This document shows positions 1,732 through 22,294 of a stretch of DNA of 64,000 nucleotides, piece by piece (the stretch's first letter is position 1; each line of letters opens with the position of its first letter). The position numbers and the translations under genes are program-made. The notes below the pieces were generated by a model that was not told the origin of the DNA, searched no databases, and saw only the letters and a list, made by a program, of their open reading frames with translations. Source of the stretch: Halorhabdus sp. CBA1104 (lineage in GTDB: Archaea > Halobacteriota > Halobacteria > Halobacteriales > Haloarculaceae); contig NZ_CP033878.1 in assembly GCF_009690625.1 (NCBI RefSeq), positions 1,302,001-1,366,000 on the forward strand, written 5' to 3'.

Positions 1732-2559
1732 TCAGTGGCTGCCGGATGGGTCGTCGCCTGGATCGTACCGTTCGGCTTGCTCCCAGTGTTTCCGGAACTG
1801 TGATTCGAGCTCCAGAGCAAACGAGGGATCTTTGACGTTGAGCAGTCCGACGACAGCGTCTGGCTCCATCGGGTTGGTCACCTCGAAACACAGCTCGACG
1901 TGATCGATGAGGAAGAACCCGCCGTGGAGCCGGTCAGTGAAGCGAACGCGAAAGGCATCGTCGTCGAACGGCGGGTGTTCGATCCGTTCGAGGAGGCCAC
2001 CGGGGACCTCCGCGACGAGATCGCGGGGTACTAACAACGAGATGTCCACGCCACGTTCGATGGCAGCACCGACGTGATCGAGGACGTTCGGTCCCATCTC
2101 TGCCACGTCGAACTCCGAGGTGAACACGTCCGCGACCATCACTACTTCTTCGTCGGCCATCTCGATCCGTTCGAGCAGTAACTCGGTCGCGTCTGCGGTC
2201 CCGATCGCCGTCGTCAGGAACCGCTCGTCGACGGTCGTTTCAGCCGACAATTCCTCGACGAGCTGGTCGCCAAGAACTTCGTACCGATCGATTTCCGCAC
2301 GCAATTCGCGGCTGCGAGTCTCGACCAGTCGGTCGATGGCGACCGCCGGTTCGACAGCGAGATACTGTTTCGGTCGGCTGTGAGTCTGAGCACGCACGAG
2401 GCCACGCGTTTCCAGACTATCGAGGACATCGTAAATCCGCCCCTCCGGGACGCCGCTGGCCTCGGCCAGTTCCATCGCCGAAACCGGGCCGAGCCCAAGC
2501 ATACTCCGATAGGCGCGGTCTTCGTAACTGGACAGACCGAGATCACGCAAATCTGTCAT
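1732..2559 (-). CDS. TrmB-family transcriptional regulator
   Basis: 275 residues from ATG at 2559 (MTDLRDLGLSSYEDRAY). The N-terminal winged helix (about 1-75) has the TrmB-type layout: a helix-turn-helix around SAMELAEASGVPEGRIYDVL and a wing around RGLVRAQTHSRPKQY. A coiled dimerisation stretch follows (VETRSRELRAEIDRYE), then an effector-like domain ending in the family's FRKHWEQAE pattern. The frame is open further upstream, but that extension has atypical composition and runs into the promoter region. It is divergent from the large surface-protein gene at 2747 and is a plausible local regulator of it, as TrmB proteins often control adjacent divergent genes. Confidence 0.85.
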   Translation of the reverse strand: MTDLRDLGLSSYEDRAYRSMLGLGPVSAMELAEASGVPEGRIYDVLDSLETRGLVRAQTHSRPKQYLAVEPAVAIDRLVETRSRELRAEIDRYEVLGDQLVEELSAETTVDERFLTTAIGTADATELLLERIEMADEEVVMVADVFTSEFDVAEMGPNVLDHVGAAIERGVDISLLVPRDLVAEVPGGLLERIEHPPFDDDAFRVRFTDRLHGGFFLIDHVELCFEVTNPMEPDAVVGLLNVKDPSFALELESQFRKHWEQAERYDPGDDPSGSH

Positions 2560-2669
2560 GATCGTCGTTGGGGATGAGAATAGAAATACACTTCGGTGAG
2601 TTTGTTTATCCCGATCGCCAGTCGATATTTCTCCCCCCATGCGCCGTATTTTTCCGTATATGCAGACAC

Positions 2670-2681
2670 AATAATATAAAG
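2670..2681 (+). promoter_or_regulatory. TATA-box region for the surface repeat protein
   Basis: An AT-rich AATAATATAAAG-type element lies about 70 bp before the ATG at 2747 in the divergent intergenic region with the TrmB gene. Its spacing predicts a transcript start near 2700 and a leader of roughly 45 nt. Inferred by pattern only. Confidence 0.45.
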
Positions 2682-2746
2682 AAACAGGTATGTAGTTGTT
2701 CCAAGTTTGCCAACCGTTATCCGGGCAAGCGGGCCTACGTAAGAAT

Positions 2747-5700
2747 ATGGACCGTTCTGACCGGGCCGGACCGAGACGGAAACTAGGGGCAGTCAGTATC
2801 GCCACGCTAGTCGTCCTCAGTAGCCTCACTGGCGTCCTCCCAGGCGGAATCGGCGTCGTCAGTGCGGCCAATTCGTCGACGATCGAAGGGACACCGCAGT
2901 TGAACGCCTCAGCACCCGACGCGCGGCTCAATCCCGGCCAGAACGGGGCCGTCGGGATCACGATCACGAACGATGCGACCTACGACGACAACAACGCGAC
3001 CCACCCGTCGGAAGCGCGCTCACGCGCGGGTGAAGCGCGGTCGGTGAGCCTGGACATCTCCGATACGAGAGGGGCACCGTTGTCGGTCGAGACTGGCTCA
3101 CAGTCGATCGGCACCGTCCAGGACGGCGAGTCCAGTGGCCCCCATTCGTTCAACGTCGTCGTCGACGAGGACGCCGCGGCCGGGACCTACGAGATGGAGG
3201 TGACGACCGAATATCGCCACGCCGAACAAGTCACCTACGAAGAAGTTGCGGACGGCGAGTACGCGTACAACGAGACGGTCGTGACCCGAACGGAAACAGA
3301 TACGATCACAGTGGTGATCGAACCAGAAGCCCGCTTCGAGGTGGACAACGTCGATCACGACGTGCCCTTGGGCGGTGAAGGGACGGTCATCCTGGACATC
3401 ACGAACACCGGTGACGAAGACGTGACCGAGACGGCAGTCTCAGTGACTTCGAGCGATTCGAACTTCTACTTTGGCTCGGGGACGGCAACGTCCGAGGCAA
3501 ACGTCGGCGATTGGGATGCCGGCGAGACCAAACAGCTCGAGTTCCGTGCTGGGACCGTCGAGAGTGCCGTCAAGCGTGAGTATCCGGTCGACGTATCTGT
3601 CAGATATACGGATAGTGATGGAACCCAACAGTCGAGCAGCGAACCGATCGGAGTCACCCCTCAGAATCGGACGCGATTCAACGTTGTTTCGGTAACACAC
3701 GACGTGCCTCGGAGCGGGGAAGGGACGCTCTCAGTCACGGTCAACCAGACAGCAGGGAAAACAATCGAAGACGTTGCAGTGACGGCCTCAACGACTGCCA
3801 CGGAAGTCTATCTCGGGAGCGAATCCTCACGGTCATCGAGGACGTTCCTCGACAACTGGGAGGGTGGGGAAGAGACGACCTTCACGTTCCGTGTCGGTAC
3901 GACTGAAAACGCTATCAACCGTTCCTATCCGATCGAACTCCAGTTCGAGTACACTGACGCCGACGACAACGACAATGCTCGAAGTTCTTTCCTTGAGTTC
4001 ACGCCGGAAAAGAGCGATCCGTTCAACGTCTCGATTGCTGATCACGACGTGCCCCAAAATGGAGAGGGGATCGTAACCTTCTCCATTAGGAATACCAGAA
4101 AAGAAAATTTTTCCGATGTTACAATAACGACGGCAAGCAGTGATTCTACAGTCACTGTCGGTGGGAGTTCCTCGCAGTCAGCGACCACAGTGATCGAGCA
4201 GTGGGAATCGGGTGAACGCCGGACCGTGACTGCCCGTGTAGGAACAGCTGAGAGCGCCGTCGAGAGGGCATACCCACTCGACGCAACCATCGAGTACACC
4301 GACGCGGCGAACAACGACAATTCTCAGACAGACACCCTCGAATTTGTCCCGGATAAACGTGACTTCTTTGCCGTCGATGGCATCTCGCATACGGTGCCGG
4401 AAAACGGCGAAGGGACCCTTTCAATCAACGTCACACAGGTCGCCAACAAGTCTTTCGAGGACGTGATGGTGACTGCCTCGACGACGGCCCCGGACGTGTA
4501 TCTTGGGGCCCAGTCCTCGCGGTCTTCGACGACAACTGTCGACACGTGGAACCGTAACGGAACACAGACGCTGACGTTCCGCGTCGGAACGACCGAAAGT
4601 GCCGTCGATCGACCCTATCCAATCGATCTCGAATTCGATTTTACCGATGCCAACGACAATGACAACACCCGGACGAAACAGCTCGAATTTACGCCTGGTG
4701 ACCGTGAGCAGTTCGAGATTGGACGAATTAACCACGATATCCCAGTAAACGGAGAAGGGACGATCGATATCCTTGCACGACAGATCACGAATAAGACCAT
4801 CGAGGACGTGACGGTGACTGCCTCGACGACGGCCCCGGACGTGTATCTTGGGGCCCAGTCCTCGCGGTCTTCGACGACAACTATCGACACATGGAGTGAC
4901 AAGGCAGCTCACGAATTTACCTTCCGTGTCGGAACGACTGATGCGGCAGTCGAGCAGGCGTATCCCATTCAACTGCAATTTGAGTACACCGATGGAGAAG
5001 ATAACGACAACTCTCGGACGAAAATTGTCGACTTCACGCCCGAAAGTCGTGACCGGTTCGAAACGGAGATTGTCAATCATGATGTCCCGCGGGGCGGCGA
5101 GGGAACGGTCACTATCGAGCTAGATCGGATCGCAGCGAGTGACGTATCAGACGTCTCAGTGACGGCAAGGACAACGGACTCCACAACCTACCTCGGTACT
5201 GAATCATCTGCGTCTGCGACGACGACGATCGGTACACTCAAAGAAAACGAGAACGAGGAGATCCAGTTCCGTGTCGGAACAAGTGATTCCGCTGTTGAGC
5301 GCCCATACACATTAGACCTCACGATCGACTATACAGGTTCAGAAAACTCCGACAATCAGCGGACCAAAAGTGTTGAGTTTATTCCACAGGATGCAGATCA
5401 CCTCTCGGTCGAAGAGGTCAATCACAACGTGCCACGGGATGGCGAAGGGACAGCGACGTTCATCATTGTCAACACCGCAAGCAAGACCCTGGAGGATGTC
5501 TCGTTAACCGCATCCTCTACAGACTCAGAGATGTACCTCGGGGCAGAAGCGTCTCAGTCCGGGACTACTGTCATCAACGAGTGGAATCCAAGCGAAACAA
5601 AACGCGTCACGTTCCGCGTCGGCACGACCGAAAACGCTGTTGACAGAACCTATCCGATCGATCTGCAATTCGAGTACACCGACGAGACGGACAACCAAAA

Positions 5701-7306
5701 CTCCCGGAACAAGCAAGTCGAGATCCGCCCGCAAGCGAAAGAGCATCTCTCGATCCACGCTGTCGAACACAACGTCCCCATCGACGGCGTCGGCCAGGTC
5801 ACGGTCCTGGCGAACAACACCGCAGACCGGAATTTCTCGGATCTCTCGGTGACAGCGTCGACGCCGGACTCAGAGGTGTACATCGGCTCTGAATCCTCAC
5901 GGTCGGGCACCGCAACGGTGAGTGAGTGGGCGGCCGGCCAGGCTCGTTCGATCACCTTCCAGGTCGGGACCAGCGCCAACGCAGTGAATCGGTCCTACCC
6001 GCTCGATCTGGAGTTCGAATACAGCGACGCGGCCGATAACAACAACCAGTACACCGACGACATCGAGTTTCGGCCCCGGTCCGAACCGCAGTTTACCGTC
6101 CAGTCGATCGATCACGAGGTGCCGATCGGGAGCACGGGCCAGGTCACGCTAACCGTACGAAACGAGGGACCGGTCAATGCCAGTGAGACGACGCTGACGA
6201 TCGGTTCCAACACGGACGCGGTGTACTTCGGCGCGGGTGGGACTCCCGAGCCGATCGAGGCCCAGGGGGTCGTCCTCGAACCACCCCGAACTGGAACGCC
6301 GACGGCCCAGAGCCACGTCGGCAACTGGTCGGTCGGCGAGACCAAAACCGTCTCCTTCCGGGTCGGCTTCGACGAGAACGCGATCACCCGGCGCTACGCC
6401 GCCGAGCTTTCGGTCAGTTACGAGAACGAAAACGGCGACGACATGCCCGACCGCACGAAGATGGTCGGGATCGAGCCGCTGGCCGAGCAGCTGTTCGACT
6501 TTGCAGCTGTAGAAAGTGACCTCCACGTCGGCGAAGAGGGTAATCTGGTCGGCGAGATCGAGAACGTCGGGAACCGGTCAGTCGAGGGCGTGGTCGTCAC
6601 CGCCGAGACACAGCGCGAGACTGTCAACTTCTACAACGCTCGCTACGCCGTTGGAGAGCTCGAACCCGGCGAATCCGAGCGTTTCCGACACCGGGTCGGC
6701 ATCACGAACGAAGCCGAGCACGGACCGCGGTTGTTCGAAGTCTCGGCCCGCTATCGGGACTCTCAGGGCGACATCCAGACGACGGACTCGCGTGACCTCA
6801 CCGTCGCGTTCGGTCGGGACCGGGACGCGTTCGGACTCGACACCGACGCGACCTTCGAGCCAGGTGCCAGTGGAACGTTGGACGTGACCGTAACGAACCG
6901 CCGGAACGAAACGCTCTCGAACGTACAAGCGAAGCTATTCACCGACGATCCGCTCGACAGTGAAGACGACTCGGCGTTCGTTCCGGAACTCGCGCCGGGC
7001 GAATCGACGACGGTCACTCTCGACCTCTCGGTCGGCGGCGGGGCCAGTGCGAAAACCTACTCGGCGTCGATGGATTTCCGCTACGACAACGCACGCGGCG
7101 AGAGTACGCTCTCGGATACCTACCGCGTACCCGTCGTCGTCGCACAGCCCGAGTCAGGCATGGGACTGCCCGTCCTCATCGGTGGCCTCGGCGTTGTGAT
7201 CGTGGTCGGCATCGCCGGCTGGCGGTTCGGAGCGGTCGACCGCCTCCGAGATCGGATCGGCGAGTGGCGGACGGACAGCGCCGGGCCCGCCGACGTCCAA
7301 GAGTAA
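2747..7306 (+). CDS. Giant secreted, membrane-anchored repeat protein (COG1361/CARDB-like Ig-type repeats)
   Basis: 1,519 residues. ATG 2747 is chosen because it starts MDRSDRAGPRRKLG followed by a hydrophobic signal segment and a likely cleavage site near VVSAANS. After an N-terminal domain of about 160 residues come nine tandem units of about 115 residues, each opening with a V-x-H-D/N-VP-x-x-GEGT pattern and containing VYLGSESSRS, FRVGTTENAV and YPIDLQFEYTD motifs. Two divergent units follow. Near the C-terminus is one membrane helix (LPVLIGGLGVVIVVGIAGW) and a short basic/acidic tail, so most of the protein lies outside the cell on a TM anchor. No catalytic motif is seen. I infer a stalk, adhesin or envelope scaffold. 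The RND-family gene starts 34 bp downstream, so the two are probably co-transcribed. Confidence 0.85.
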   Translation: MDRSDRAGPRRKLGAVSIATLVVLSSLTGVLPGGIGVVSAANSSTIEGTPQLNASAPDARLNPGQNGAVGITITNDATYDDNNATHPSEARSRAGEARSVSLDISDTRGAPLSVETGSQSIGTVQDGESSGPHSFNVVVDEDAAAGTYEMEVTTEYRHAEQVTYEEVADGEYAYNETVVTRTETDTITVVIEPEARFEVDNVDHDVPLGGEGTVILDITNTGDEDVTETAVSVTSSDSNFYFGSGTATSEANVGDWDAGETKQLEFRAGTVESAVKREYPVDVSVRYTDSDGTQQSSSEPIGVTPQNRTRFNVVSVTHDVPRSGEGTLSVTVNQTAGKTIEDVAVTASTTATEVYLGSESSRSSRTFLDNWEGGEETTFTFRVGTTENAINRSYPIELQFEYTDADDNDNARSSFLEFTPEKSDPFNVSIADHDVPQNGEGIVTFSIRNTRKENFSDVTITTASSDSTVTVGGSSSQSATTVIEQWESGERRTVTARVGTAESAVERAYPLDATIEYTDAANNDNSQTDTLEFVPDKRDFFAVDGISHTVPENGEGTLSINVTQVANKSFEDVMVTASTTAPDVYLGAQSSRSSTTTVDTWNRNGTQTLTFRVGTTESAVDRPYPIDLEFDFTDANDNDNTRTKQLEFTPGDREQFEIGRINHDIPVNGEGTIDILARQITNKTIEDVTVTASTTAPDVYLGAQSSRSSTTTIDTWSDKAAHEFTFRVGTTDAAVEQAYPIQLQFEYTDGEDNDNSRTKIVDFTPESRDRFETEIVNHDVPRGGEGTVTIELDRIAASDVSDVSVTARTTDSTTYLGTESSASATTTIGTLKENENEEIQFRVGTSDSAVERPYTLDLTIDYTGSENSDNQRTKSVEFIPQDADHLSVEEVNHNVPRDGEGTATFIIVNTASKTLEDVSLTASSTDSEMYLGAEASQSGTTVINEWNPSETKRVTFRVGTTENAVDRTYPIDLQFEYTDETDNQNSRNKQVEIRPQAKEHLSIHAVEHNVPIDGVGQVTVLANNTADRNFSDLSVTASTPDSEVYIGSESSRSGTATVSEWAAGQARSITFQVGTSANAVNRSYPLDLEFEYSDAADNNNQYTDDIEFRPRSEPQFTVQSIDHEVPIGSTGQVTLTVRNEGPVNASETTLTIGSNTDAVYFGAGGTPEPIEAQGVVLEPPRTGTPTAQSHVGNWSVGETKTVSFRVGFDENAITRRYAAELSVSYENENGDDMPDRTKMVGIEPLAEQLFDFAAVESDLHVGEEGNLVGEIENVGNRSVEGVVVTAETQRETVNFYNARYAVGELEPGESERFRHRVGITNEAEHGPRLFEVSARYRDSQGDIQTTDSRDLTVAFGRDRDAFGLDTDATFEPGASGTLDVTVTNRRNETLSNVQAKLFTDDPLDSEDDSAFVPELAPGESTTVTLDLSVGGGASAKTYSASMDFRYDNARGESTLSDTYRVPVVVAQPESGMGLPVLIGGLGVVIVVGIAGWRFGAVDRLRDRIGEWRTDSAGPADVQE
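3350..6508 (+). repeat. Nine-unit in-frame tandem repeat, 345-bp period
   Basis: The homologous codon of the VDHDVP motif starts at 3350, 3692, 4037, 4382, 4727, 5072, 5417, 5762 and 6107. The first step is 342 bp and the next seven are exactly 345 bp (115 codons). The ninth unit is longer (to about 6508) through an inserted linker. Units 4 and 5 share 70 identical bases (4468-4537 versus 4813-4882) while flanking codons differ, suggesting recent local gene conversion. Confidence 0.95.
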
Positions 7307-7340
7307 CAGCACACTGAGAGACCCTGCCAGACCTCTAGAA

Positions 7341-9779
7341 ATGACTCCGCTCCCTTCGATCGACCACGAAGATATCGTCCGAGCGGTCGACAGAGAGATC
7401 GTCGACCACTCCGTCCGAGTCATCATCGTCTTCCTGCTGTTGAGTGGTATCTTCGCCGGCGGCATGGCGGGCGTGAGTATCGACGCCGGCACCCAGCGGT
7501 TCTTCGAGAGTGTCCCCGAGCATCACACCCAACAGTTCATCGACGACCAGTTCGGCGCGACGTTCGACGCGGGCGAGGACTCGACACAAGTCGTCGTCAG
7601 CGACGAGAACGTCTTCTCGAAGCGGGCCTTGCTCCGGATGCTCGAACTGCAAGAAGACCTCGAAGCCGATCCGTCGCTCCGGGTGGGCGACGTAACCGGA
7701 CTCGCCTCTGGGGTCGCCAGAGTCCTAGACCCGTTGGCGACGACGACAACAGCACAGCGGCAGGCGATCGAGACGGCAACGCCAACGGAGATTCGAGCGG
7801 CCAGCCACACGCTGCTCGATCGGCGGCCCCAGGTCGCCCAGCTACTGAGTGAAGACCAGAATCTGGCTGAGCCCCACGCCTCAGCGACGATCGTGCTCGT
7901 GTCACACGCGATTCCGGAGGGGGACGATTCGACCTTAGAGACCGTCCAAGAGCGGGTCAAGCAGGTCGCGGAGACGGGCCACGGCGACGTTCGTGTCTTC
8001 GGGACGGCGATCCAGGATGCTGGCTTCGATCGGGCGATCTTCGAGTCACTGTCGTTGATCGTCCCAATGGTGACCGTCCTGATTCTCGTGTTCCTGATCG
8101 TCGCCTATCGGGACCCGATCGATCTGGTGCTGGCGCTCGTGAGTCTATTGTTGGCTATCGTCTGGACGTTCGGCTTCATGGGCTATGCCGGAATCAGTTT
8201 CAACCTCATGATGGTCGCGGTCCCGGTCCTGTTGCTGGGCGTCGGGATCGACTTCGGGATCCACGCCGTCAACCGATATCGCGAGGAGCGAGTCGCCGGG
8301 AAGTCAGTCGAGGACAGTATGTCGATCGCCAACCGGCAGTTGCTGGTGGCTTTTTTCATCGTCTCGGTGACGAACGTCATCGGGTTCTCGGCGAACGTGA
8401 CGAGTGCCCTCGAACCCGTCCGGGAATTCGGGCTCGTCGTCGCGGTCGGGATGGTGTTTACGCTTGCCGTCTTCGGTGTCTTTCTGCCCGCGCTGAAGGT
8501 CGTCGTCGATCGCTGGCGGCACTCGAGGGGCATCAGACAGTTTTCGATCACGCCACTCGGTGGCGAGGAATCGCGGCTTGGCGACATCCTCCGATCGAGT
8601 GCAATCGTCGCCAAACGTCACCCGCTGATTCTGCTTGCGATCATCCTCCTGGTAACTGGAGCCGCCGCCCAGTCCGCGACGAACGTCGAATCGAAGTTCG
8701 AGACCGAGGACTTCCTGCCGTACGCCGATCACCCGCCACAGCTCGATGCGATTCCCGACCAGATTGCCCCCTCCGAGTTCGAAATCACGGCCACGTCGAA
8801 TTATATCACCGACACGTTCGAGACGACCAACACCGAACAGGTGACGTTGTACGTCGAGGGACCGCTACGGCGGGATCACGCCCTCGAAGCCGTCTCCCGC
8901 GTCGGCTCGGACCCACCGGACTCGTTCGTCCGCAAAGACGGCCACGCCGTTTCACAGAGCATCGTGGACGTCATGGAGAGGGCTGCCCGACAGGACAGGG
9001 AATTTGCGGACCTACTCGACCGCAACGACCTCTCGGAGAACGGCGTCCCCGATCGGAACCTCGATGCGATCTATCAGGCGTTGCTGTCCTCTGAGTACGG
9101 GGACCAGGCCCGCCAGTACCTGACCGCGGATCGCCGAGCGACGAAAGTCGTCTACCAGGTCCAAGCCAGCGCCAGCCAGAAGGAAGTCACCGAGGACGCG
9201 CGCACGCTCGCCGCCGACGCCCGGTTCGACGCCGTTGTGACGGGCGACATCATCGTCTTCCGGGCACTGACTGAGGCGCTGATGAGCTCTGCGATCATCA
9301 GTTTCGCCGTCGCGTTCTTGCTGACAGCGGCGTTCCTGGTCGTGATCTTCGGCCTGCTCGAAGGGCGGTGGTCGCTTGGGCTGGCGACGATGGCGCCGGT
9401 CACGGTCGCGATCGTGTTGCTAGTCGGGTCGATGCCCATCCTCGGCATCACGTTCAACGCGCTGACGGCGACGATCCTCGCGATCACGATCGGTCTCGGA
9501 GTGGCCTACGCCGTCCACGTCAGCCACCGGTTCATCGACGAATACGACGACAACGGGGACGTCCACGAATCGCTGCTCGTGACGCTCAGCGGGACTGGGG
9601 GCGGGATCACCGCGAGCATGCTGACGACCTCGGGAAGTGTCGTCTGTATGACCGTCGCCGTCAACCCGATTTTGGGGCAGTTCGGCCTGCTAACCGGTGT
9701 CAGTACGTTCCTCTCGTATCTGACGGCGGTGACGGTGTTGCCGCTGACGCTCCGTGGCTGGGCGCGCGTGTTCGGCTAG
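7341..9779 (+). CDS. RND/MMPL-superfamily membrane protein with sterol-sensing-like domain
   Basis: 812 residues in two homologous halves. Each half has one N-terminal membrane helix (about 26-48 and about 430-447), a large extracytoplasmic loop, then a cluster of five helices (about 235-390 and about 640-810). The helix clusters contain the RND/MMPL pattern, for example LLLGVGIDFGIHAVNRYREE and LGVAYAVHVSHRFIDEYDD. This superfamily uses the ion gradient to move lipids, drugs or other hydrophobic molecules; the substrate cannot be read here. It lies 34 bp behind the giant repeat protein, so the pair probably forms one surface-assembly or export operon. Confidence 0.85.
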   Translation: MTPLPSIDHEDIVRAVDREIVDHSVRVIIVFLLLSGIFAGGMAGVSIDAGTQRFFESVPEHHTQQFIDDQFGATFDAGEDSTQVVVSDENVFSKRALLRMLELQEDLEADPSLRVGDVTGLASGVARVLDPLATTTTAQRQAIETATPTEIRAASHTLLDRRPQVAQLLSEDQNLAEPHASATIVLVSHAIPEGDDSTLETVQERVKQVAETGHGDVRVFGTAIQDAGFDRAIFESLSLIVPMVTVLILVFLIVAYRDPIDLVLALVSLLLAIVWTFGFMGYAGISFNLMMVAVPVLLLGVGIDFGIHAVNRYREERVAGKSVEDSMSIANRQLLVAFFIVSVTNVIGFSANVTSALEPVREFGLVVAVGMVFTLAVFGVFLPALKVVVDRWRHSRGIRQFSITPLGGEESRLGDILRSSAIVAKRHPLILLAIILLVTGAAAQSATNVESKFETEDFLPYADHPPQLDAIPDQIAPSEFEITATSNYITDTFETTNTEQVTLYVEGPLRRDHALEAVSRVGSDPPDSFVRKDGHAVSQSIVDVMERAARQDREFADLLDRNDLSENGVPDRNLDAIYQALLSSEYGDQARQYLTADRRATKVVYQVQASASQKEVTEDARTLAADARFDAVVTGDIIVFRALTEALMSSAIISFAVAFLLTAAFLVVIFGLLEGRWSLGLATMAPVTVAIVLLVGSMPILGITFNALTATILAITIGLGVAYAVHVSHRFIDEYDDNGDVHESLLVTLSGTGGGITASMLTTSGSVVCMTVAVNPILGQFGLLTGVSTFLSYLTAVTVLPLTLRGWARVFG

Positions 9780-20729: not shown

Positions 20730-22112
20730 ATGTCAGACAAACCTGTGAGGAGTGGACGGAGACGTAAGTTCATCAAGGGAGCGGGAGCTGCGATGGTAAC
20801 AGCGCTCGCTGGCTGTGGTGGCGGCGACACGACGACGGAAGGAGAGGGAAGCGGTTCGACGCCGACGGAGAACAACGAAGGGACGACGACCGGGACGGCG
20901 TCCCAGAACGTCACGACCCTCTCGTTGCGGATGTTCGCCAACAGCGCCAAAGAGAAGTTTATCAACGACCACAACCCCAAGATGCGGGAGGAGATCGGTG
21001 TCGAGGTTGACTACGAGACGATGGGCTGGAGCAACGCGAAAAAAGTCCAGAACAACAGCATTACGAGTGGGTCCGGTCCCGACGTCGAGGAGATTGCCTC
21101 GACGTGGATGCCCAAGCAGATCAACTCGAACGGGTGGATGGATATGGGAGAAGCCGGTGTCGATCTGCCCGAAGACAAGATCTACGACTCGCCGATGGAG
21201 ATCGGTAAGTTCGATGGTGTGACCGCTGGCTTCCCGTGGTTCTGGGGTCCGCGCGCGCACCTGTACTACGATGGAATGATGGAAAGTGCCGGTATCGACG
21301 GCGCGCCAAGCACCTGGGACGAGATGATCGAAGACGCGAAAACGTTCAACGGGTGGGCCGAGAAGCAAGCAAGCAGTGGCTTCCAGCAAAAGTCCCTCTT
21401 TGGCATCCCCGGCGCGAACAACTGGGCGGTCACCCAGTACTACATGATGCTCCTCTGGCAGAACGGCGGCCAGATGCTCGACGACAACAACAAGGCCGTC
21501 TTCAACAGCGACAAAGCCGTCCAAGCGATGAACTTCTATAAGGACCTGGCTGGCGCGAACAATATTTCGCCCCGGTCGTCTATCGAGTGGAACGGCACCG
21601 CGCGGAACAACGCCTTCATCTCGAAACAGATCGCCAGTACCTGGGCCGGTATCACGATGAAGAGCAACATCAGCAACCCCCAGAAGAATCTGACCGCAGG
21701 GGCGCCACCGGCCGGGCCAAACGGTGATCCGTCGACGTTCTTCGGCGTGAACCTGATCGGCATTCACCCGTGGACGGACAAACAGCGGGCCGCCGCGAAA
21801 TTCGTCGAGTACCTCACGCGAGCGGACGTGAACGCGGATCTCGCCAAGCGCCGGGGCTTTCTCCCGTCGGTCAAAGAGAGCTTCCAGGCACCCGCAATCC
21901 AGAACAACTCGTTGTTCCAGGAGTTCAACACGCTGCTCGAGGATACCAACGCCAAAACCGCGCCACAGGTCGTCGGCTGGGGTGGGGTTGCCAACTCGCT
22001 GAAGGGTGCTATCGTCGATATCCTGACCAAAGAATCGACTGGCAACTGGTCGCAAGGAGACACGAAAAAGCGTCTCGACGCAGCGGTCACGCAGGCCAAC
22101 GACGCCCTCTGA
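20730..22112 (+). CDS. ABC sugar transporter, Tat-exported solute-binding lipoprotein
   Basis: 460 residues. The N-terminus has a twin-arginine motif (GRRRKFIKGAG), a short hydrophobic stretch and a lipobox LAGC, so it is exported folded by Tat and lipid-anchored. A Thr/Ser/Glu-rich linker follows, then a family-1 (MalE/UgpB-like) binding fold with features such as GPDVEEIASTWMPKQ, GFPWFWGPRAHLYYDG and FFGVNLIGIHPWTDKQRAAAKF. It binds an oligosaccharide or related sugar outside the cell and delivers it to the two permeases downstream. The first of these starts 182 bp later with its own GGAGGTGA site. Confidence 0.92.
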   Translation: MSDKPVRSGRRRKFIKGAGAAMVTALAGCGGGDTTTEGEGSGSTPTENNEGTTTGTASQNVTTLSLRMFANSAKEKFINDHNPKMREEIGVEVDYETMGWSNAKKVQNNSITSGSGPDVEEIASTWMPKQINSNGWMDMGEAGVDLPEDKIYDSPMEIGKFDGVTAGFPWFWGPRAHLYYDGMMESAGIDGAPSTWDEMIEDAKTFNGWAEKQASSGFQQKSLFGIPGANNWAVTQYYMMLLWQNGGQMLDDNNKAVFNSDKAVQAMNFYKDLAGANNISPRSSIEWNGTARNNAFISKQIASTWAGITMKSNISNPQKNLTAGAPPAGPNGDPSTFFGVNLIGIHPWTDKQRAAAKFVEYLTRADVNADLAKRRGFLPSVKESFQAPAIQNNSLFQEFNTLLEDTNAKTAPQVVGWGGVANSLKGAIVDILTKESTGNWSQGDTKKRLDAAVTQANDAL

Positions 22113-22294
22113 AGACTCGCGCCCCAACCAAGGGTTCGTCCACCAGACGCGCCGCCGCCACGATTCGACATCCCGTCTTGGCCGTCGATTGCGTCGGTCA
22201 GTAGCCGATCGTGTAACTTGTTTTGATTTTTTTGACTGGTCGAGGGAGCAAAGAACACAAACAAATATTAGTGTGGAGGTGAACACTTCGATCT

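Follow-up and report, generated by a model that had tools for sequence, protein, structure and literature searches.

How did a gene of Halorhabdus sp. CBA1104 come to carry a long series of repeats with an exact 345-bp period, and what might its product do? The gene, here called S, lies at 2747..7306 on the plus strand of the 64,000-nucleotide stretch of DNA that we analysed (the window, positions 1302001-1366000 of a 2.63-Mb contig), and its open reading frame, domain scan, and orthologues mark it as an RND-T-associated gene of the "COG1361 S-layer family". An initial annotation attributed the period to nine 115-residue units of a surface stalk, with recent unit conversion or duplication and a length that can vary.

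Architecture and predicted fold of the S protein

The S protein is 1519 amino acids long (ATG at 2747, stop ending at 7306) and consists of a signal peptide, an N-terminal domain, eleven Ig-like units, and a C-terminal transmembrane segment, all encoded on the plus strand. Its hydrophobic, signal-like N-terminus, read by eye, is a probable Sec-type signal peptide (residues 1-40, ...LVVLSSLTGVLPGG...VVSA; 2747..2866). The N-terminal domain (2867..3325) matches a profile built from the units very weakly (14 bits in hmmsearch), and in addition to it the profile finds 11 domains over residues 194-1467. Unit 1 (3326..3667) has 114 amino acids. Units 2 to 8, delimited by domain scan and unit comparison, have 115 each and occupy 3668..4012, 4013..4357, 4358..4702, 4703..5047, 5048..5392, 5393..5737, and 5738..6082, with profile scores of 147-161 bits. 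Unit 9 (6083..6484) has 134 amino acids, including a loop insertion of ~19 residues (~6236-6292) that is modelled as disordered. Units 10 (6485..6823; 104 bits) and 11 (6824..7147; 89 bits) are divergent Ig-like domains, and a C-terminal transmembrane helix (7190..7264) is followed by a short charged tail.

A Pfam and NCBIfam scan of S returned no domain above threshold. In the region of unit 11, NPCBM_assoc/NEW3 (23.7, with a gathering cut-off of 24.4) and CARDB (17.1, with a cut-off of 22.7) both fall short. The protein has no cysteine, a net negative charge, and 20 N-X-S/T sequons. S is present in a single copy in the genome. Misassembly was considered and judged unlikely, given that the genome is a single 2.63-Mb contig and the units are distinct. 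Our literature searches on COG1361 with RND, on MMPL with S-layer, and on Halorhabdus surface proteins did not find this locus.

A two-unit model of units 4 and 5, built on an alignment of 55 unit pairs, reached a pLDDT of 95.5, and each unit in it is an all-beta domain of eight strands. Foldseek matches the model to tandem domains of Ig/E-set-like type, among them transglutaminase beta-barrels, RbmA, and integrin legs, and a sequence search of solved structures with the units gave no significant match. In a second model, of units 7-11 and the C-terminus (pLDDT 84), the unit 9 loop is disordered and the C-terminal helix (residues 600-624 of the modelled segment) has low confidence. The signal peptide, the C-terminal helix, and the Ig-like models support the earlier view of S as a surface-exposed stalk. 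Short linkers, and the fibre model published for the Haloferax protein HVO_A0466, suggest that S may form an extended fibre.

An exact period with old units

Codons of the V-x-H-x-VP motif recur at 3350, 3692, 4037, 4382, 4727, 5072, 5417, 5762, and 6107, separated by one step of 342 bp and seven of 345 bp, exactly as first described. Nine 115-residue units is a less accurate description, since seven units have this length, unit 1 and unit 9 depart from it, and the array is longer: divergent units 10 and 11 continue to 7147, and the N-terminal domain precedes unit 1.

The period by itself does not indicate recent duplication. Units 2-8 share 38-60% of amino acids and 50-69% of nucleotides in pairwise comparison, and a Tandem Repeats Finder scan gave no array with a 345-bp period at S; by these measures the repetition in S is one of protein domains and not a tandem repeat at the DNA level. 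Identity at fourfold sites between units is mostly 0.20-0.45, close to the 0.25-0.37 expected by chance, and we therefore rejected recent unit duplication. The units are old, with synonymous sites near saturation, so the period is held by selection on a 115-residue domain. An exact DNA repeat period can thus coexist with near-saturation at synonymous sites.

A conversion tract in units 4 and 5

The identity of 70 bp reported between units 4 and 5 (4468-4537 and 4813-4882) holds base for base, and nowhere else in the gene do two stretches agree over at least 18 bp. In 100 synonymous-codon shuffles of the S protein, the longest run had a median length of 16 bp and never exceeded 22 bp. With three mismatches allowed, the tract reaches 95 bp (4457..4551 in unit 4 and 4802..4896 in unit 5, both on the plus strand), and outside it fourfold identity between the two units is 10/20. 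Because divergence resumes at both sides, we interpret the tract as a product of conversion, so that of the two processes originally offered, conversion is retained and unit duplication is not. The tract is younger than the split from Halorhabdus salina, since its mismatch of 3% compares with ~11-15% divergence in the flanks, and it is the only young event in the array. A search of the family for a donor found none closer than the gene's own two copies, the next best being the outgroup genome G005 at 75%.

Similar tracts occur elsewhere. In the S gene of Halapricum hydrolyticum (G059/Hap59, L158:2642-6223), neighbouring units are strongly homogenised along two tracts, one of 106 bp and one of 74 bp, and tracts above the shuffle maximum are also present in another Halapricum (Hap61/G061; 45 bp) and at loci L041 (51 bp), L109 (49 bp), L076 (35 bp), and L047 (34 bp). 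Homogenised tracts have arisen independently in Halapricum and in other genera.

Domain number across relatives

Among 96 S proteins compared, the one studied here is the longest, with 11 units plus the N-terminal domain; the next has 8, and most have 3-4. With one genome per species, the unit count is 7 in H. salina, 6 in G005, 7 in G011, and 7-8 in Halapricum. The typical family size of ~4 domains is not defining, in that relatives span 2-8 unit domains and S has twelve domains when the N-terminal one is included. The tree of the adjoining permease, M, calls for a minimum of 26 changes in domain number, some of which reflect profile thresholds or contig ends. The proposal of a variable array length therefore holds for unit number among related species, but not in the form of an expanding DNA repeat.

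These data bear on a model in which S is an actively expanding and contracting stalk, shaped by recent unit duplication and varying between strains as periscope-type proteins do. Sister species do differ in unit number, and one homogenised tract is recent. However, synonymous sites have diverged nearly to saturation between units, the run in units 4 and 5 is the sole long exact repeat, and in five Halobacterium plasmid records a four-domain relative is constant in length, apart from one alternative annotated start. Periscope Proteins are moreover defined by highly similar repeats (at least 80% identical in that screen; PMC8201768), a level that units 2-8 do not reach in amino acids or nucleotides. 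We regard this model as very unlikely.

Exchange of the middle block

Comparison with H. salina (G002) divides the gene into parts with different histories. The permeases of the two species are 92% identical and the flanks of S about 85-89%, and units 1 and 8-11 are position-orthologous, with 81-93% amino acid identity (81% for unit 1, which the tree also supports across species, and 87% and 93% for units 8 and 9 against units 4 and 5 of H. salina). By contrast, units 2-7 cannot be paired one to one with the two middle units of H. salina. Along the gene, identity is ~0.80-0.93 to codon 283, ~0.53-0.76 to codon 975, and mostly 0.76-0.96 thereafter. The left orthology breakpoint falls within codons 274-284 (best 283; 3566..3598; log-likelihood gain 24.3), and the right one, in unit 7, within codons 968-976 (best 975; 5648..5675; gain 41.7). 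Within their units the two breakpoints have roughly equivalent offsets (about 81-94) that fall inside or next to the best conserved part of the unit, so the exchange involved complete units, six in this species corresponding to two in H. salina. Homologous recombination would be a plausible mechanism.

The S gene taken alone, with H. salina left aside, gives similar boundaries. A change-point fit to fourfold GC places them at codons 277 and 953 (gain 22.5, against a permutation maximum of 10.2), with fourfold GC of about 0.61-0.62 inside the block and ~0.82 outside. No such dip is found in the H. salina S gene. Unit 2 is collinear with unit 2 of G005 by comparison and tree, whereas H. salina is not, yet the low-GC signature sits on the Halorhabdus sp. 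CBA1104 side, so that the two signals conflict over the direction of the exchange. Unit 3 clusters with unit 3 of G011 (tree support 97/93). We found no lineage that could have donated the central block; units 2-7 all have their best relatives in Halorhabdus and Halapricum.

Simple deletion in H. salina and simple duplication here were both considered and do not fit the middle units, which after a deletion or a duplication should still be orthologous or resemble one another. It is also conceivable that the middle units are orthologous and have evolved faster, under relaxed or diversifying selection that lowered GC3 as well, with no recombination. Surface domains are frequently quick to evolve, and the lower fourfold GC of the middle (0.62 versus about 0.8) could be read in this way. 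However, fourfold identity to H. salina is 0.27-0.50 in the middle units and 0.62-0.80 in the flanking ones, and such near-saturation is not expected from selection on the protein. The sharp breakpoints, the difference of exactly four units, and the undiminished profile scores of units 2-8 also argue against accelerated evolution, which we consider improbable. Collinearity is largely retained among the three Halapricum S genes that we compared, except that their middle shows a local dip and jumps from one unit to another, and thus a complete block exchange is documented so far for only one species pair.

The adjoining permease

M (7341..9779, plus strand) encodes an RND/MMPL permease of 812 amino acids that is HAE3-like (Pfam MMPL, 1.2e-37), and its best solved relatives are RND/HpnN/MmpL4 proteins. 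S, ending 34 bp before M begins, is directly upstream of it and on the same strand, an arrangement found at 96 of the 105 loci with M. Database records name the two "COG1361 S-layer family protein" and "MMPL family transporter". A divergently oriented gene for a TrmB-family regulator (1732..2559, minus strand), identified by Pfam scan and locus comparison, is kept beside the pair in the nearest relatives.

By sequence, S and M appear to be a haloarchaeal RND-T-associated pair, a kind already known. In Haloferax volcanii, the RND-T-associated protein HVO_A0466 pairs with the RND permease HVO_A0467, and AlphaFold predicts for it a fibre in which four Ig folds are combined with a transmembrane helix at the C-terminus; it is reported to be glycosylated and is probably secreted (PMC11349517). 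The permease is induced 44-fold by iron starvation and has been proposed, but not proven, to be a siderophore exporter; its deletion has little phenotype (PMC11349517). The S genes of Haloferax denitrificans, H. sulfurifontis, and H. massiliensis match our unit profile, and the all-beta units, the C-terminal helix, and the Ig/E-set-like PDB matches of S agree with the tandem Ig folds and transmembrane helix of the family. Adjacency, together with published paired phylogenies of RND-T-associated proteins and permeases (PMC11349517), suggests that S works in partnership with M.

S might instead be an S-layer protein or adhesin whose function is unrelated to the permease, adjacency reflecting co-regulation only. 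The "S-layer family" annotation of other records points that way, and archaeal S-layers are also built from Ig-like domains (PMC8640222). Against this stand the conservation of S-M adjacency across many families, the position of the genome's single S copy beside a permease, and the fact that this type of pairing is published (PMC11349517), and we consider an unrelated function rather unlikely.

Residue 722 of M (9504-9506), at the Asp position of the second-half GxDY motif, is Ala in this species, H. salina, Halapricum, and G046, and in 28 of 91 homologues overall, whereas every homologue retains the Asp of the first half (GIDFGIH). We take the GxDY Asp to be the expected proton-relay position in MmpL/HAE3 transporters. 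The locus seems dispensable, in that another member of the genus (G003) is missing the stretch matching 1901-9003, comprising the 5' part of the regulator gene, all of S, and the first two thirds of M; remnants of regulator and permease, with ~32 bp between collinear flanks, are still present (L063 ~9158-9190).

Three Halorussus genomes (L075, L076, and L081) have the permease without an adjacent S, and carry an S-like gene of 6-7 domains ~4 kb downstream on the opposite strand. An S-M pair is also present in a Methanohalarchaeum metagenome-assembled genome (L068:7296-12412), with M 59% identical and S having a GC3 of 0.22. In the haloarchaeal permease tree this pair falls beside the Halorhabdus/Halapricum clade, which suggests inter-lineage transfer, although the branch is long and its placement uncertain. 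Elsewhere in the window, a long open reading frame (20736-22292) has a GC3 of 0.53, unusually low for the window.

A proposed role and origin for S

We propose that S, an unusually long member of the haloarchaeal RND-T-associated family, forms a membrane-anchored fibre outside the cell, with about twelve Ig-like domains, and works with the RND permease encoded downstream. Its conserved working ends would be the base (units 8-11) and the tip (N-terminal domain and unit 1), and the central units may be a spacer that sets the reach of the fibre. Three processes would have shaped its array: old duplications of units, with the fold keeping their length at 115 residues; homologous recombination within the conserved FRVGTTxxAVxRxYPIDLxFEYTD motif, by which several complete units were swapped together; and conversion over short tracts from one unit to another. 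We consider this account, taken as a whole, reasonably probable.

Conserved ends and an exchanged middle point to functional parts of S. Whether the fibre crosses or protrudes beyond the S-layer is uncertain, because Haloferax S-layer pores are only about 13 Å (PMC8640222). The natural series of lengths, from ~3 to 12 domains, makes reach, S-layer crossing, and docking of this recently described RND partner directly testable. More tentatively, haloarchaeal exporters may possess a reach-adjustable Ig fibre with a central recombination cassette, in which blocks of whole units are swapped between lineages at a conserved within-unit motif while the ends stay fixed. This would be a case of archaeal variable-stalk diversification beyond Thermococcales, with viruses or symbionts as possible drivers.

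Comparison with known systems

S most resembles HVO_A0466, whose gene is likewise directly 5' of an RND permease gene and whose product shares the tandem Ig folds, C-terminal helix, and probable secretion, but which has four Ig domains where S has twelve (PMC11349517). The part of that account available to us makes no mention of length variation, block exchange, or conversion (PMC11349517). The Haloferax S-layer glycoprotein csg also displays tandem Ig-like domains on a haloarchaeal surface, but its six domains form a lattice (PMC8640222), and S is known here from sequence and models.

Like the Periscope Proteins SasG, Rib, and Sgo_0707, S has a variable number of tandem domains between a conserved tip and base (PMC8201768). 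Their repeats, however, are highly similar and vary between strains, whereas the variation in S is between species only and involves units of much lower identity. The VARTIG modules of Thermococcales are, as we propose for S, archaeal surface Ig proteins diversified through recombination between lineages, and have variable C-terminal Ig domains in polymorphic-toxin-like loci with variable downstream genes (PMC8416519). Unlike these, S varies in the middle while both ends are conserved, its C-terminal units being 87-93% identical to those of H. salina in amino acids, and the adjoining permease gene is constant.
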